23,264 nt of DNA. It comes from a virus. The notes beneath the pieces were generated by a model that did not search any database, was not told the DNA's origin, and saw nothing but the letters and a program-made list of their open reading frames with translations. The stretch covers positions 1-23,264 of the IMG/VR virus record IMGVR_UViG_3300032322_001690; one strand, 5' to 3'. Below, in pieces: positions 13,098-20,352 of the stretch. The first letter of the stretch is position 1; every line of letters begins with the position of its first letter. A program made the position numbers and the translations under genes.

Positions 13098-13570
13098 TAC
13101 AGGGGTACGTTGCCGGTGGGGGGCAGATTGCCGACCATCGCCTGGGTAAGGCGTAGCCGGGGTAGTTCATAGCCTATCGCCGCGAGTGGGCTACCTAGAG
13201 TGATGCTTACTTTATCAATCCCATTGTGACCGAGGTACAGCACTTCAAATAAATCAACCATCCAATCACTCACAGGTGTGAGAGGTTCTCCGTCAAGCCA
13301 GGTGGTGGAGATCTCAGCTAGCCAGCGTTCGTTAGAGGCTATGCTGAATATGTTAAAGCTCAGCTCATTCATCGACATTAGCAACGACCCACTTACCGCT
13401 GATGCGCTGGAATCGGTGCTACCCCCGGAATAAGCAAAACCTGCGAAGGTGTACTCCTCCCCGAGCCTGGTGAGTGTGCGCCCTGCGGAGAAGTTTTGGA
13501 AGCGATACCCTGTGGGGCTACCATCGGGGAATAGTAAGCGTAGAAATGAGCCGATTGCGGGGGCACTCAT
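13097..13570 (-). CDS. Minor/distal tail protein
   Basis: 157 residues from the chosen start. MSAPAIGSFLRLLFPDG leads into GYRFQNFSAGRTLTRLGEEYTFAGF, a central Ser-rich SGSLLMSMNELSF and the ending AMVGNLPPTGNVPL, a pattern typical of tail proteins placed between tape measure and tip in siphoviruses (the lambda M/L position). No enzymatic motif. I chose ATG at 13570 because it overlaps the tape measure TAA by one base and has AGGAG at 13578-13582, seven nt upstream; a longer reading from 13618 adds 16 residues inside the tape measure gene and lacks support. Its stop overlaps the ATG of the tip gene, so the three genes are coupled. Confidence 0.8.
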   Translation of the reverse strand: MSAPAIGSFLRLLFPDGSPTGYRFQNFSAGRTLTRLGEEYTFAGFAYSGGSTDSSASAVSGSLLMSMNELSFNIFSIASNERWLAEISTTWLDGEPLTPVSDWMVDLFEVLYLGHNGIDKVSITLGSPLAAIGYELPRLRLTQAMVGNLPPTGNVPL

Positions 13571-16500
13571 TAGCGAACTCCTGGAACGCGGGTGTCGTTC
13601 CGCAAGGAACTGCGCCATTGTTGATCCGCTTCGCGCTTAGCGTCTCGGCGGATAGCTTTTCCAGAGTCCTCGATACCTTGACGGAACTGCTCTTCCGTGA
13701 CAAACGGTAGATCGCCGGTCCCAACACGTTCGTATTGGATGGTTAATGGTTGACTTGCGGCCATTAAAGTTGTTGTTTGGTAGTTCTCCTCCATGGCCCT
13801 TAATGAACCCAAGAGTGCTTCTTGGGAACCGCCGGATTGATAGTTCTGCTCCATGGCGCTGAGTGAGCCTTGAAGGGCCTGCGAGGCGGAGTCGCCCCGG
13901 AGTTCGACGGGGAGGGCTTTGCCGTTCGGCATTGGGATGACCGCCTCGGTGCCGTGCAGCTCTGCTAGGTAGCCGCTGGAGGAGCCTCGGGCGATGCCTC
14001 CAGAAGAGAAGGACGGAAGCTTGGCCATGCCCTCAGGGGTGAAGACACCACCATTGCGGGCGGAGCCCAGCAGATTGGGCATTTGGAGGGCTTGCCCGAA
14101 GGAGGTGGAAGGCGCACTGCTAAAGGCACTGCTGAAGGAAGCACCGCCGCCTCCGATGGCACCGACTCCTCCAGAGATCAAGCTGGAAGCCAGGGAGAAG
14201 GCTATTTTGGCGATGCTGGAGCCCCCTGAGGCGGCGCTGGCGCCAGCACTGGCGGCGATGGCACCGGTTAGGGCCACCAAAGCGGCGGTGTTTGCTGTAG
14301 TTGCTGCGGTTTGCAGACCTACAACCGTTGTGTTGGCGGCAGTAATTGTGCCTGCAGCGGTTAATGCACCTGTGTTTGACGCGGATGCGGAAGCCTGAAG
14401 GGCGGCGGTGGTCTGAACTCCAAGAAGCTGAGCGATGAATTGGGTTATGCTGGTTTCTAGAGGTTTAGCGACAAGGTCGAAAGACATATCCATAAACTTG
14501 TTTCCGATACTGCTTAGCATCTCACCGACCGCTACTGTTACGTCACCTCCAGTAGAAATAGTCTTTAGCATGTTACGGAACCCCCCAGTGAGTTCTCTAC
14601 CCATTTCAGAGGCTCTGGCCCATGTGTCGGATTGCTTTTTGGCGTTAACTTCAAGCGTACCCAGGGCCACCGCAGCATCTTTAACGGCTATTGCGTACTG
14701 ACCGACGACACGGTTTAGCTCTTCGTCAGTTATGAGTGGCCGCTCTTTTTTGATGTCAAGCTTTTTATTGGCGATGTCTGCATCTGCCTGAATCAGCCTA
14801 TTACCTACGAAGTCATCAGGGCGCAGACTCATAGAAGCGACCCTAACCCCGATGGCGATTTTTTGTCTCTCTAGGTTTAGCTGGACTTCAAGCAGTTCAT
14901 TCTGAATCCTTTGAATCTGAGCTGTTTCTTGCTTAGTCTTTAACGTCTGCCTCTCCAGTTCTACACGTCTCTCTTCGTTGGCAGGTTTACTCCTGTCAAG
15001 GCTAGCAACCTCTTGCCTTCTCCATTCGTCCAGCCTTTTAATCAAAGCTTCTTGCTTATCCATAGGGACTAAGGGGGTCCCGTCTGGCTTATTCTGCTTG
15101 ATTTTCTCCAACGCAGCATCGTAGATACGAATGAGCCCATTCATCTTTTGTTGATTGGCTACAGCAAGCTCAAACTCTTGAGGGTCGTAGACTTTGCCCA
15201 AATTTGCCCTTACTGACATTAGTTCTGTGTTTGCGTTCGCCAATGCAGTTCGTGCTTCTTCTAGCCCTACCTTGGGTAAGGCATTTGCTATTATGTTGTC
15301 AAACGCCTCAGCGGTATTTGCGCTAATAATCTTGGAGCTGAGGTCGTCAATGCGCTGAAGTTGAGCCTCAAGGTTCCTTGTCATAGACGCTTGAGCACCG
15401 GTTTGCCCGCTGAACAGTGCAGAAAGGTCGGGAACCTGCGGGGCGGCAAGCGCACTCGGGGGAGTACCTTTTTTCGCCTGTCCGTCTTCACCAACCCAAG
15501 CCTGCCCGTTCCAGGTGACAGACTTACCCCCGAGGGTGGACTTAGTCCCGACCGGGCGGCCCTGAACCGTAGAGGGACCCATGGTTGTGCCACTCGCCAT
15601 GGAGGTCTTAAGGCCGTGCAGCATCTGGTTGCCGGTGAGCAGCGAAGTGGCTGTGTAACCACCACCGCCATTTGTCCATTCGGCCTTGCTTACGGGGACT
15701 GGGATAAGTGTGCCTGCGGGCAGAGAAATGTCGACGGCGTTTTTACTTTGTCCGGGCCTGCGTCCCCGTGTGGAATCGTGAGCCCCTTGCTCTACGCTCA
15801 GCCTCCGTCGCAGTTCTTTCTCATCGGTAACATTGAGAATGTTTTTGTTTTGGGGTTCTAGCTTGGCTAGGTTAGGTAGCTCCATATAGGCCACTCCCGA
15901 TCTTTGCAGCGCCTTGACAATGGCTAGCGCCTCTTCGATGACTTTCTGCTTGTCAGGTCCACGCAGATCGAGGTGAGGGCCGGTGGAGTTGCCAGTGGAG
16001 CCCACCAGGAAGCCGGAGCCGACTCCTGGGGCGGTTATGGGATTGGAGGGGTTACCTTCTGATCGCCTCGCCTTCTCCTCTAGGGCCGCCTGCTGGACTT
16101 TGTATTCGGAAACCTTCTTTTCATAATCCCCGACTTTCATACGCATCTGAGCAATCGTCTTCTCAGCTTCAAACCTATAGTCCATAATGGACTTTTCCAT
16201 GCTGTTTATCTCGATCTGCAACGCTCTTCGATTATTTTCGATTGATTGCTCGCCTTTAGCCTTGATAGATAGATATTCGTTGATGCCTTGAGTCACACTA
16301 CGGGCTACACCTTCTTGACCTTCCAAAAGCTTCGCATTAAGCCGGTCAGCAGCTTTAATACGGAGATCGGACTCAAGACTGATAATCTCAGAGGCTTTCT
16401 GCAGAGACTGCTGGCGCAATTGGAACATTACGTTCTCATGGGCGCGTTCTTGAGCGCGAATCTCCTTACTAATATCAATTTTCTTTTGTCCTAGGATTCT

Positions 16501-19071
16501 GAGGTCTTCTTCTTGCTGTACTCTGTCCTTTAGATTACCGATTCTAGTAAGTTCATCTTTACTCTTCTGGTTGTCCTCCAGAAGCTTTTTCATTTGCTCC
16601 TGTTGTAACGTGTTTCTATCCAAATCTGGGGTAAAGCTGCTTAAAATTGCTAGCCCAAGTTCTGCCCAAGAGTTTAGTCCCTCAGTGGATATATCGTAGT
16701 TAAGGTCATTTAGAGCTTTATTCGTCTCTTGAATCTTCTTTGTAAGCTCATCCCACCTACTATTAACTTGAGCTTCATCAGCTTCCTTGCCTTTTTGAGC
16801 AGCGTATGAGGCATTATCTCCTAAGTCTTTGTAGACTGTACTGAGACGTTTAATCGCAAGCTCTGTTTTGGTCTGAGACGCTATCTCGTCCCTTGCCCGT
16901 TGCATACGGCCAAACAGGTCAATAAGCATAGCAGTCCCTACTTGAGCAACTACCATCCAAGCCATAAAGGACGCGAAGCTGAGAACCATGCCTTTTACAG
17001 CACCCCCGATAGCACCTGCCGCGCCTTTGACACTCTCGCCTAGCCTGTTCATTCCCTGTCTAGCTGTGTTCCCCACATCATTTGCGCTAACCTTAAGCTT
17101 CTCAAGCGCAAGAAGCATCTTTGTAGCTTCTATGTCAACAGCGCCGGCTGCTCTCGCCGCACCCAAAGATATTGCGTTAAAGCTACGCCCAACTTCACTA
17201 ATAGCAATGGCGAGTTTGGTGAATTGCGGGTACGCCTCTTGAACGAAGACTGCGATATTTACTAATGCTGTAGCTATAGCTCTAGCCAAGACTGCTGCCC
17301 ACTGTAGTGTGCTACTAATAAGCGTCGTGCCGAAGGTTACTAGCTTCCCTATAACAAAAGAAATGCCCTGAGAGGCACCTGCTATTGCGGTGCTAATCCA
17401 AGTGCCTACTTTAGTTAATCCGGCGCCGATAGCACTCACGACAGTGTCGAAACCTGCCTTGAATTGCATGATGCTCTTGAGGACCGAAGGCACAACCATG
17501 CCTATGCGGATAAGCCCATTAACTCCGATTTTTTCAAGTACCACGAATTGAGCGGTAACTTGACTAACATACTGAAAAAGTGGCAGTGCTATTAGTTGCC
17601 CATACACAGTTAAAAGCCCTGAGACCGCTGGGATCACAGTGGCATTCAGCACCGCCCCCATGTTGGCAAGTGTGTTAACTAGAATTTTTAGTTGTTCAAA
17701 CTTGAAGTCAGCAAAGCCTAAGAACAAATTCTTAAGCCCAGTGCCTACCATCACAAAAGCCTTTACCAGCTCGTCTGTGAATTTTGCGATAACCGGGCGC
17801 AGATTCTCTACTTGAGCCTGCACCGTAATAAACAGCTCCGCTGTCGCTTTGTTAATGTCGTTGAACAGATCCTTTTGTGCCCCATCATCGAACTTTTGCA
17901 GACTCGGGGCGGCCATACCTGCGCCGATAACTCCCTGTCCGATTGCCGCCCCGGCCCGCCCCATCCCGTCCGCGATCTCCATCGCCGGTTTGACAATGAG
18001 CGACATCCTCCGGTAGGTCTCACCTAGCCCGTCGAGGAGGGGTTGCAGCATGGGCGCCCCGAGAGCGCGGCCTAATTCCTGCTGGATTTCTTTGATGTTA
18101 GAGGTTATGCCGGCAAAGCCCTGTGCTTGTATCTTTTGCCCTGCAGTGAACGCGGCTAGCTTCTTTGTGATGAAATCGACCAGATCTCCCGCCTGCTTGG
18201 CTTTCTGGATGTCTTTATTGGTTATTCCTAGAGAACGGGCAAGGATGGAGTTGTTGTCAATGTCGCCCCGGAGCATCGAGCCGACTTCCTGGGTGGCTAG
18301 TCCAGGGTCGCTCATCCCAATGGTGCCGAGGGCCGCACTGAAGCTGAGTGCCAGCTTCTTGGCGTCTTCAATGGACCCACCGACCTGCCCGATCTGGCTT
18401 GAGACGGTCCCAAAGACTTGAATAATTGCTTCGGATGTTGTCCCGGCGATCTCTAGTGACTCGACCCTTATCTCGTCAATGGCTTTTTGAATTGGGCGCT
18501 TAAGCGCTAAGACGCTATCAAGTGGATTAGTTAGTTCAACTCCGTTTCTTAGAATTTTGTTTGTCGCTGCGATCGTTGTTTGCGTTTGCAGCATGACTTG
18601 CTGCAAACGGACCTCTCGCCCAATAGTCTCATCAAACATCCCGCCATAGGCGGATTTGAGAACGTTGACGCTTTGAGTCAGCCCGAAGATAGTGAAGCCC
18701 AGTCGGGCCACACTGTTGACAAGGGCGTCGGAAGCAATGACTGCACCCTGGAGGCTGACAGCTAGGGTCTTGCCGGGGCTTGCCTGGCTCAGCAGAATAG
18801 CCGCCTGAGCTGCGGTCTTGAACGTGTCCCCGAGGGCTTTTCCGACAGACTCAATGTCCATCAATGCCGGAACTACGTTCCTGGCAATACCGTAGGTGGT
18901 TTGTAGGGCTTTACCTACGTCTTGAACACCTTTGACCGTTTCCGATAAACTCGGGAACTGGACATTGATCTTAATTGGCGCTTGGAGATTCTTTAGCCTA
19001 TTGTCAATATTGTCGAGATCTCTCTGAGCCGCATTAGAATCACTTTCGACTCGGATTGTGTAGTCGGCCAC
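13570..19071 (-). CDS. Tape measure protein
   Basis: About 1833 residues; its length would set tail length. N terminus ADYTIRVESDSNAAQRDLDN is a typical tape measure opening. A helical, hydrophobic central stretch follows, clearest near 690-715 (MVLSFASFMAWMVVAQVG), then a charged coiled-coil region about 720-1000, a permuted M23-like domain at about 1015-1160, more coiled coil, an Ala/Ser/Gly-rich segment and a C-terminal GYLAELHGTEAVIPMPNGK motif common in tape measure proteins. No ATG start exists: candidates are TTG at 19092 and GTG at 19071. I prefer GTG because it yields M-ADYTIRVE; neither has a Shine-Dalgarno. It lies directly after the chaperone pair, as in lambda, and its stop overlaps the next ATG. 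Confidence 0.9.
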   Translation of the reverse strand: MADYTIRVESDSNAAQRDLDNIDNRLKNLQAPIKINVQFPSLSETVKGVQDVGKALQTTYGIARNVVPALMDIESVGKALGDTFKTAAQAAILLSQASPGKTLAVSLQGAVIASDALVNSVARLGFTIFGLTQSVNVLKSAYGGMFDETIGREVRLQQVMLQTQTTIAATNKILRNGVELTNPLDSVLALKRPIQKAIDEIRVESLEIAGTTSEAIIQVFGTVSSQIGQVGGSIEDAKKLALSFSAALGTIGMSDPGLATQEVGSMLRGDIDNNSILARSLGITNKDIQKAKQAGDLVDFITKKLAAFTAGQKIQAQGFAGITSNIKEIQQELGRALGAPMLQPLLDGLGETYRRMSLIVKPAMEIADGMGRAGAAIGQGVIGAGMAAPSLQKFDDGAQKDLFNDINKATAELFITVQAQVENLRPVIAKFTDELVKAFVMVGTGLKNLFLGFADFKFEQLKILVNTLANMGAVLNATVIPAVSGLLTVYGQLIALPLFQYVSQVTAQFVVLEKIGVNGLIRIGMVVPSVLKSIMQFKAGFDTVVSAIGAGLTKVGTWISTAIAGASQGISFVIGKLVTFGTTLISSTLQWAAVLARAIATALVNIAVFVQEAYPQFTKLAIAISEVGRSFNAISLGAARAAGAVDIEATKMLLALEKLKVSANDVGNTARQGMNRLGESVKGAAGAIGGAVKGMVLSFASFMAWMVVAQVGTAMLIDLFGRMQRARDEIASQTKTELAIKRLSTVYKDLGDNASYAAQKGKEADEAQVNSRWDELTKKIQETNKALNDLNYDISTEGLNSWAELGLAILSSFTPDLDRNTLQQEQMKKLLEDNQKSKDELTRIGNLKDRVQQEEDLRILGQKKIDISKEIRAQERAHENVMFQLRQQSLQKASEIISLESDLRIKAADRLNAKLLEGQEGVARSVTQGINEYLSIKAKGEQSIENNRRALQIEINSMEKSIMDYRFEAEKTIAQMRMKVGDYEKKVSEYKVQQAALEEKARRSEGNPSNPITAPGVGSGFLVGSTGNSTGPHLDLRGPDKQKVIEEALAIVKALQRSGVAYMELPNLAKLEPQNKNILNVTDEKELRRRLSVEQGAHDSTRGRRPGQSKNAVDISLPAGTLIPVPVSKAEWTNGGGGYTATSLLTGNQMLHGLKTSMASGTTMGPSTVQGRPVGTKSTLGGKSVTWNGQAWVGEDGQAKKGTPPSALAAPQVPDLSALFSGQTGAQASMTRNLEAQLQRIDDLSSKIISANTAEAFDNIIANALPKVGLEEARTALANANTELMSVRANLGKVYDPQEFELAVANQQKMNGLIRIYDAALEKIKQNKPDGTPLVPMDKQEALIKRLDEWRRQEVASLDRSKPANEERRVELERQTLKTKQETAQIQRIQNELLEVQLNLERQKIAIGVRVASMSLRPDDFVGNRLIQADADIANKKLDIKKERPLITDEELNRVVGQYAIAVKDAAVALGTLEVNAKKQSDTWARASEMGRELTGGFRNMLKTISTGGDVTVAVGEMLSSIGNKFMDMSFDLVAKPLETSITQFIAQLLGVQTTAALQASASASNTGALTAAGTITAANTTVVGLQTAATTANTAALVALTGAIAASAGASAASGGSSIAKIAFSLASSLISGGVGAIGGGGASFSSAFSSAPSTSFGQALQMPNLLGSARNGGVFTPEGMAKLPSFSSGGIARGSSSGYLAELHGTEAVIPMPNGKALPVELRGDSASQALQGSLSAMEQNYQSGGSQEALLGSLRAMEENYQTTTLMAASQPLTIQYERVGTGDLPFVTEEQFRQGIEDSGKAIRRDAKREADQQWRSSLRNDTRVPGVR
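13578..13582 (-). promoter_or_regulatory. Shine-Dalgarno AGGAG for the distal tail gene
   Basis: AGGAG on the minus strand, seven nt before the ATG at 13570 and lying inside the end of the tape measure gene. It decides the start of the 157-residue protein over the longer frame. Clear sites of this kind are rare in the window. Confidence 0.7.
13779..13882 (-). repeat. 60-nt tandem repeat near the tape measure C terminus
   Basis: Two adjacent copies encode GSLSAMEQNYQ and GSLRAMEENYQ; the CCATGG cores at 13791 and 13851 are exactly 60 bases (20 codons) apart. The copies have diverged at third positions, so the duplication is not recent. Confidence 0.75.
15590..16050 (-). other. Permuted M23-like domain within the tape measure protein
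   Basis: Numbered from GTG 19071: VGSTGNSTGPHLDLR (H1033, D1035) resembles the final motif of M23 peptidases (GSTG-x-STGPHLH). It is followed, not preceded, by NAVDISLPAGTLI (D1114), which resembles the first M23 motif, and by a GGGGY...MLHGL stretch (H1152) resembling the middle motif. The order is therefore circularly permuted. The usual His of H-x-x-x-D is Lys1110 and HLH is HLD, so zinc binding looks incomplete and the domain may be structural. The assignment is by eye. Confidence 0.55.
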
Positions 19072-19101
19072 CGAATTCGCCAAAAGAGCCAATAGGTCAG
19101 G

Positions 19102-20120
19102 CTATCGCCGGGGGCTAGACGGGCTCGGGGGGCGACTCAGTCGCATATACACATGGATCGGGATCCTGCGCTCCTGGACAAGGCGGTGGAGGACATGCTT
19201 GGTCCGCTCGGTGATTTTTAGGCGTACCTCGTCGGCTGACTCACCAGTGGTGACCTCCAAGCCTGGGAACGGCAGGAATATATCGGGATTTTTGAATTCT
19301 ACCTTTTGGCTGGGATTGAGGTGCTTAATTCCTAGGAAGTGGACAATGCTGGTCAGCTGCGCGGCGGTCGTTGCCGCGATGTTCGCGTCTCGTTGTTGAA
19401 GCTCATCAATCTTCTGCAGCAAAGCTTGAATCAGCTTTACCGGAGTACGAATAAATCTGTGAGCGGGGAAATCGTCCGCCAGGCATGAGTTGCGAAAACG
19501 GATGTAGATTTCACCCCAGTCGTACTCCGGCTCGGCCCAGAGCTTTTCGTAGGATCTGAGAATCGCGTCTATGTCTAAGTCGCCTTCGGGCGTAAGCTCA
19601 GCTTCGCCGCCTCTTCGTTTCCCTCGGCAGCGTCAGGCCAACCATTCCGCTCCCATGCAATGAAGTCGGACATTCTGTTGAGCACCTTTAGGGGAATGCG
19701 GCTAGTGTCTTCCAGCGTCCAGTCCTCAGTGGATTCCCAAACTCCGGTTTCGGGGTGTTTGACTTGACCCCGATACTGAAGAAGCATAAATGCGTAAGCC
19801 TGCAACTTAGCAGTTGACTCTTCTTGCGCGGCGTTTAGCGCTTGGATTTGGTCGAGGTAGTCGTAGATAATACTGTCTTTGTCTTCTGCGCCGGATCGCT
19901 GTAGTAGGTCGACGGCTTCTTTGTTGGTGATACCTTTGTCTTTGGCAATCTGCTTCGCCAGACGCATAGATTCGTAAGTCCCCTTGGAATACTCCTTCTC
20001 GATGGCCGTGATCTGAGTCACCTCTGCAGGGACCAGATCCTTGTGGATCGGAAAACGGAACGGCCCGATCTCGTAGTAGTCGCTAACCGGGAACAGCAGC
20101 CCTTTGTTGAACGTGCTCAT
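19102..20120 (-). CDS. Tail assembly chaperone GT-type fusion, by -1 frameshift
   Basis: The upstream gene is read for 168 codons to G GGA AAC, then continues in the -1 frame from 19617 to TAG at 19102-19104, giving about 339 residues. The -1 frame is open from just after a TGA at 19633-19635. Translating it by hand gives RRGGEAELTPEGDLDID, then YDWGEIYIRFRNSCLADDF, without a stop. It holds no ATG, GTG or TTG until a TTG at 19422 deep inside, so it cannot readily be made alone. Position just before the tape measure gene matches lambda gpGT, whose T part recruits tube protein while G binds the tape measure. Function is by analogy; the frames and heptamer are read directly. Confidence 0.85.
19575..20120 (-). 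CDS. Tail assembly chaperone G-type, zero-frame product
   Basis: 181 residues when translation does not slip; the reading ends at TAG 19575-19577 with LSLRPKAT. Mostly helical and charged (IEKEYSKGTYESMRLAKQIA, YLDQIQALNAAQEESTAKLQ), as expected for a chaperone that coats the tape measure protein. I use ATG at 20120; a TTG at 20138 would add six residues. No Shine-Dalgarno is seen, and the start lies inside the end of the preceding small gene (38-nt overlap), so coupling is likely. It resembles lambda gpG in place and partnership, not in obvious sequence. Confidence 0.82.
   Translation of the reverse strand: MSTFNKGLLFPVSDYYEIGPFRFPIHKDLVPAEVTQITAIEKEYSKGTYESMRLAKQIAKDKGITNKEAVDLLQRSGAEDKDSIIYDYLDQIQALNAAQEESTAKLQAYAFMLLQYRGQVKHPETGVWESTEDWTLEDTSRIPLKVLNRMSDFIAWERNGWPDAAEGNEEAAKLSLRPKAT
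19589..19623 (-). promoter_or_regulatory. Programmed -1 frameshift signal: GGGAAAC slippery site plus hairpin
   Basis: The minus strand reads ..GAG GGA AAC.. in the chaperone frame, giving the canonical X-XXY-YYZ heptamer G GGA AAC at 19623-19617. Eight nt later a stem can form at 19608-19589: GGCG-AAGC, loop TGA, GCTT, a bulged A, CGCC (eight pairs). The spacing suits a stimulatory structure. Lambda uses the closely related GGGAAAG at its G-T junction. Confidence 0.85.
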
Positions 20121-20352
20121 GGTGGTAAGGCAGCTCAACAGACCAGGCGATTAGGGCGTTCTGGCGGTTGAGCCATTGAGGGGGAAGATCAACTTCTACG
20201 TTAGCATCTTCGCCGGAAAGATGCACAGCCTGCTCGACGGTGAAGGGCTCTATGTAGATTGCCCCGACCTTAACGCTCTCGGGGAGGATCTCGCAATTGA
20301 CTGCGAAGATTGTGCAGATCGGATTTAATAGTAAATCGACTTCTTTGGACAT
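20083..20352 (-). CDS. Small hypothetical tail-cluster protein
   Basis: 89 residues, not recognised. It has a short hydrophobic beta-like N-terminal part (LLLNPICTIFAVNCEIL) and contains VGAIYIEPFTVEQAVHLSG and LPPQWLNRQNALIAW; no clear membrane helix. ATG at 20352 has no Shine-Dalgarno and follows the intrinsic terminator by about 20 nt, so its mRNA would depend on read-through or an unseen promoter. Its 3' end overlaps the chaperone start by 38 nt. Position between major tail protein and chaperone suggests a tail assembly role. It could be spurious, but the 230 bases upstream of the chaperone would otherwise be empty in a very compact region. Confidence 0.6.
   Translation of the reverse strand: MSKEVDLLLNPICTIFAVNCEILPESVKVGAIYIEPFTVEQAVHLSGEDANVEVDLPPQWLNRQNALIAWSVELPYHHEHVQQRAAVPG

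Follow-up and report, generated by a model that had tools for sequence, protein, structure and literature searches.

The window, by which we mean the entire 23,264-nt stretch of DNA analyzed, is taken from a metagenomic virus record and carries two overlapping open reading frames on the minus strand, directly ahead of a gene for a tail length tape measure protein (Table 1). The first of these (G) occupies the zero frame and the second (T) lies in the -1 frame relative to it. Near the end of G the zero frame on the minus strand reads GAG GGA AAC GAA, so that the heptamer GGGAAAC falls into the X_XXY_YYZ register of a slippery site. A sequence-only reading of this locus had placed G GGA AAC in the correct zero-frame register, and it is found there, at 19623-19617 within the 181-aa ORF. 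The same reading described a -1 frame that is open from 19632 to 19102 with no ATG, GTG, or TTG before 19422, and a direct reading of the sequence gave the same result. Across the window's genes, X_XXY_YYZ (Y = A or T) occurs at 7 of 7256 in-register codon positions, from which the chance expectation for a heptamer in the 19-codon G/T overlap is 0.018. In-register GGGAAA[C/G] has a single occurrence among these genes, which is the G/T site. The run of 177 open codons in the -1 frame has a chance probability of about 0.001. A predicted G-T fusion made by a -1 shift at the heptamer has 339 aa, comprising G residues 1-168 (ending in EGN) and 171 aa of the T frame (beginning with RRGG).

Table 1. 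Features of the G/T locus in the window
Feature	Position	Strand	Remarks
89-aa ORF overlapping the G start	20083..20352	-	89-aa ORF at the equivalent place in S-CBS4
G-like ORF (zero frame), putative tail assembly chaperone, short form	19575..20120	-	181 aa, ATG at 20120, TAG stop
Slippery heptamer G_GGA_AAC, in register	19617..19623	-	X_XXY_YYZ kept in 104 distinct sites
Possible stimulatory hairpin	19589..19608	-	arm 19608-19601 pairs with 19597-19589
Zero-frame stop TAG	19575..19577	-	39 nt past the heptamer
-1 frame (T part)	19102..19632	-	open 19632-19105, TAG at 19104-19102
Tail length tape measure protein gene	13570..19092	-	phrog_1292, E = 1.6e-10

The tape measure ORF begins 9 nt after the end of T. 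The pair had also been described as lying immediately ahead of the tape measure gene, and the PHROG match of the next ORF (E = 1.6e-10) confirmed this position. G and T are flanked by tail genes on one side and by the tape measure gene on the other, an order also present in the annotated genome of Synechococcus phage S-CBS4. At its other end, the start of G is overlapped by 38 nt by the 89-aa ORF (20083-20352, minus strand), and a clear Shine-Dalgarno sequence is absent ahead of the G ATG. As read from the sequence, this overlap and the lack of a clear ribosome binding site suggest that translation of the two ORFs is coupled.

Relatives were identified in viral contigs. A search with G alone returned ten matches at 33-37% identity, and in all ten contigs an in-register GGGAAAC lies close to where G ends, and a -1 frame about 147 codons long is conserved. 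With T as a lone single-sequence query no relatives were found among viral contigs, and alignments were required. Alignment-based searches widened the set to 194 loci with a G-like ORF, and the non-redundant set of relatives has 53 members. In the family alignment, G is 35-47% identical to relatives. An in-register X_XXY_YYZ heptamer in the overlap, with T in the -1 frame, is present at 187 of the 194 loci and corresponds to 104 distinct site sequences; because some contigs entered repeatedly under different loci, we rely on the number of distinct sites, which still share descent. These 104 sites comprise 72 GGGAAAC, 24 GGGAAAG, 3 GGGAAAA, 2 AAAAAAA, 2 AAAAAAC, and 1 AAAAAAG. The sequence-only reading had looked to related phages for conservation of the heptamer, and the heptamer and the -1 frame are indeed kept together in all 104. 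The remaining 7 of the 194 loci are distant relatives (L145-L151) with T in the -1 frame and no canonical heptamer. In this group, which includes several contigs of 65-118 kb, T overlaps G by 82-106 nt (e.g., L145:3157-3241). No X_XXY_YYZ was found when the full overlap was examined, and a conserved CAG GGG GAG (G_GGG_GAG) is the sole obvious candidate slip site. A host-genome scan with the G alignment returned no matches, and no host is therefore assigned to the window phage.

Codon usage at the site differs from that in the rest of G. Glycine at the site is encoded by GGA in 99 of 99 distinct sites compared with 142 of 825 glycines (17%) elsewhere in the same ORFs, and asparagine by AAC in 74 of 74 compared with 266 of 375. 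The base ahead of this codon pair is fixed, while the residue that precedes the pair can be any of eight (E, A, S, Q, T, P, V, or G). From these alignments we read the fixed GGA, AAC, and preceding base as a constraint on nucleotides, one required by a slippery site but not by protein coding. Slippage by RNA polymerase, with insertions or deletions in the mRNA taking the place of a ribosomal shift, would be conceivable at the A-runs of a few relatives (AAAAAAA, AAAAAAG, and AAAAAAC), where a polymerase could slip. However, the window and 72 of the 104 distinct relatives have GGGAAAC, in which no homopolymer exceeds three bases, and the strict codon register of X_XXY_YYZ is needed by ribosomal but not by polymerase slippage; we consider a transcriptional origin very improbable. 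Even less probability, close to none, attaches to the view that one continuous ORF is broken here by an error of sequencing or assembly, or by gene decay. The window does come from a metagenomic virus record, and single-base errors happen, but many metagenomes, and the isolate S-CBS4 as well, show the same break and heptamer (104 distinct sites), and both frames are conserved as protein. Sequencing error as the source of the frame break was rejected because relatives share the break.

Alignments of T show that this frame is conserved as a protein and, as far as can be read from its codons, has no start of its own. The first ATG, GTG, or TTG in the window's -1 frame is TTG 19422, which opens a 106-aa ORF, and T could be a separate gene translated from this codon or from a non-standard one, with the heptamer incidental to it; gp033 of S-CBS4 is annotated in just this way. 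Homology of T nevertheless reaches about 65 residues upstream of TTG 19422 (e.g., D35, Y40, F57, R59, and P61), and the positions between the junction and this codon that are invariant or nearly so are K2, L29, Y40, F57, R59, and P61. The first start codons in the T frame are scattered among relatives, and one relative (L082) has no start codon anywhere in T. No Shine-Dalgarno-like stretch was found ahead of TTG 19422 when the sequence was read directly, and a separate gene would leave the fixed GGA codon and the fixed preceding base unexplained. A -1-frame stop lies just ahead of the heptamer in many relatives and in several of them leaves slippage at the heptamer as the only entry into T. 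On this evidence we regard an independently started T as improbable, and entry by frameshifting at the heptamer is the reading retained below.

Frameshifting of this kind is long established in tailed phages, and the window is a further case that is ordinary in kind. The lambda proteins gpG and gpGT, in a ratio of about 30:1, both bind to the tape measure protein, with the T domain recruiting subunits of the tail tube (PMC5009743). The lambda slip site is G_GGA_AAG (Xu, Hendrix and Duda 2004 and later, as summarised in PMC5009743). Like lambda G/GT, the window has a zero-frame short form, a -1 extended form, and an X_XXY_YYZ heptamer near the 3' end of G, and the cassette lies directly before the tape measure gene with a T frame that lacks a start. 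Unlike lambda, its heptamer ends in AAC rather than AAG, its T part is longer (171 aa), and G and T have no detectable sequence or fold homology to the lambda proteins in the libraries searched. The statement that the arrangement matches lambda G/GT accordingly holds for gene order, recoding, and the size of the design, but not for homology in sequence or fold. Similarly, the description of the site as canonical is correct for the X_XXY_YYZ pattern but less so for the A-site codon, which is AAC and not the AAG preferred in lambda and at E. coli-type sites (PMC5009743). In A_AAA_AAZ constructs in E. coli, AAG slips most readily as the second codon, whereas AAC is weaker and more typical of mammalian sites (PMC5009743).

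GGGAAAC itself has been predicted in other phages at the chaperone pair ahead of the tape measure gene. Examples are gp18/gp19 of Burkholderia phage KL1, in which the heptamer lies directly before a TGA (PMC3483164), Caulobacter phage Colossus (PMC3556154), and the haloarchaeal virus HCTV-1 (PMC5009743). The comparison of these three with the window covered heptamer and gene position, and both are shared. In KL1 the stop abuts the heptamer, as it does in one clade of the window's relatives, whereas the zero-frame stop of the window is 39 nt away. The nearest named relative is S-CBS4 (HQ698895), with a G homologue at 27% identity (E = 3e-9). It resembles the window in having T in the -1 frame and the G/T order before an annotated tape measure gene, and differs in its in-register site, which is AAAAAAA.

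Searches for named families and folds were conducted with both proteins. No named chaperone family was matched by G or T in Pfam and PHROGs at E <= 1, no named family in NCBIfam, and no sequence or Foldseek match in the PDB at E <= 0.001; absence of a family or fold match does not exclude a distant relation of G and T to the lambda proteins. Structure models of G and T have mean pLDDT values of 82.6 and 84.1, respectively, and are predicted to be mainly helical. Fold searches against the PDB yielded weak generic helical matches only (best Z 5.7 for G and 2.7 for T). In BFVD, an entry named 'tail assembly chaperone' was found at rank 9 with a non-significant E value of 1.5. The top BFVD matches of G and T include the unnamed pair A0A346A5Z9 and A0A346A600, whose accessions look like neighbouring genes of one phage. 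With no homology found to the lambda proteins or to named families, the locus is placed in this class of cassettes by its arrangement and recoding, and a chaperone role is assigned by analogy.

The same lack of detectable homology to named chaperones would allow the frameshifted pair to be tail proteins that do something else than chaperone the tape measure. We consider such a role unlikely, if slightly less so than a separately started T. The place of the pair, with tail genes on one side and the tape measure gene on the other, the protein sizes, the mainly helical prediction, and the frameshift are all those of a lambda-type G/GT, and the weak, non-significant BFVD match points the same way. 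The locus is very probably a cassette for programmed -1 ribosomal frameshifting in a long-tailed phage, of the lambda G/GT type by arrangement, and the frameshift interpretation first put forward from the sequence is supported. By this reading, slippage on GGGAAAC almost certainly gives this aquatic phage two forms of a protein that helps to build the tail. Most ribosomes would translate the 181-aa G to the TAG at 19575. A minority would slip back one base with a glycine tRNA on GGA in the P site and an asparagine tRNA on AAC in the A site. The slipped tRNAs would re-pair on GGG AAA, and the T frame would then be read to 19102 to give the 339-aa fusion. We infer both this slippage in cells and its efficiency. 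By analogy with lambda gpG and gpGT, many copies of G and few of G-T would act as chaperones of the tape measure protein, with the T part recruiting tail tube subunits.

RNA structure downstream of the heptamer was compared with shuffled sequences in the window and its relatives. An eight-pair hairpin starting 8 nt past the heptamer had been predicted for the window, and it is present, with one bulged A at 19593. Statistical support for it was not obtained in the window alone (P = 0.065 for shuffles with a hairpin at the given position), and the folding energy of the window shows no excess over shuffles (general folding z of about 0). In four relatives with a zero-frame stop 12-18 nt past the heptamer, stems of differing sequence occur at about the same place (P of 0.01-0.045), and the two relatives closest to the window are among these four. 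The large group with a spacing of 39-51 nt, which is the window's group by spacing, has no excess structure (mean z of -0.2 to -0.6). A stimulatory role for the window hairpin is possible.

A separate clade (L002-L010 and L097-L131) has a zero-frame TAA or TGA that abuts GGGAAAC. Members of this immediate-stop clade have a long stem from 7-8 nt past the heptamer, with a mean z of -3.0 (n = 27) and values below -2 in 21 of the 27. Two-sided changes of paired bases occur in up to 10 of 23 sequences (columns 15-69, 21-63, and 24-60). The covariation score of this stem (0.243) is not reached by any of 500 shuffles or by any slid version; the number of pairs with double changes (4) does not exceed all of the shuffled and slid versions.

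The family varies in its heptamer (AAC, AAG, or AAA endings), in the distance to the stop (0 to 51 nt), and in RNA structure, and this natural variation could be used to ask what sets the frameshift rate outside E. coli-type hosts. There is an even chance, in our estimation, that these loci represent a large family of tail chaperones from aquatic phages, most of it undescribed and not covered by current Pfam and PHROG families, with a diversified frameshift cassette. Such a family would include cassettes in which the stop abuts GGGAAAC and a long covarying stem begins 7-8 nt past it, cassettes with a later stop and scant or absent structure, and those of a distant branch that has T in the -1 frame but no X_XXY_YYZ and perhaps slips at G_GGG_GAG.

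For annotation, the results mean that T should be joined to G in the window phage and in more than 100 related contigs. A gene caller had been expected to report a TTG-started protein of 106 residues and to miss about 65 residues of T. In the window, a caller starting at TTG 19422 would lose 65 of the 171, and gp032/gp033 of S-CBS4 provide an actual case. The record of this isolate carries the predicted annotation error, with gp033 (T) annotated about 84 residues short. The two S-CBS4 genes (L012:6001-6971) are annotated as separate hypothetical proteins and look like one frameshifted G/T pair. T residues 1-67 of the window (19423-19622, minus strand) precede every ATG, GTG, and TTG, hold family-conserved positions, and would be missed by standard gene calls.
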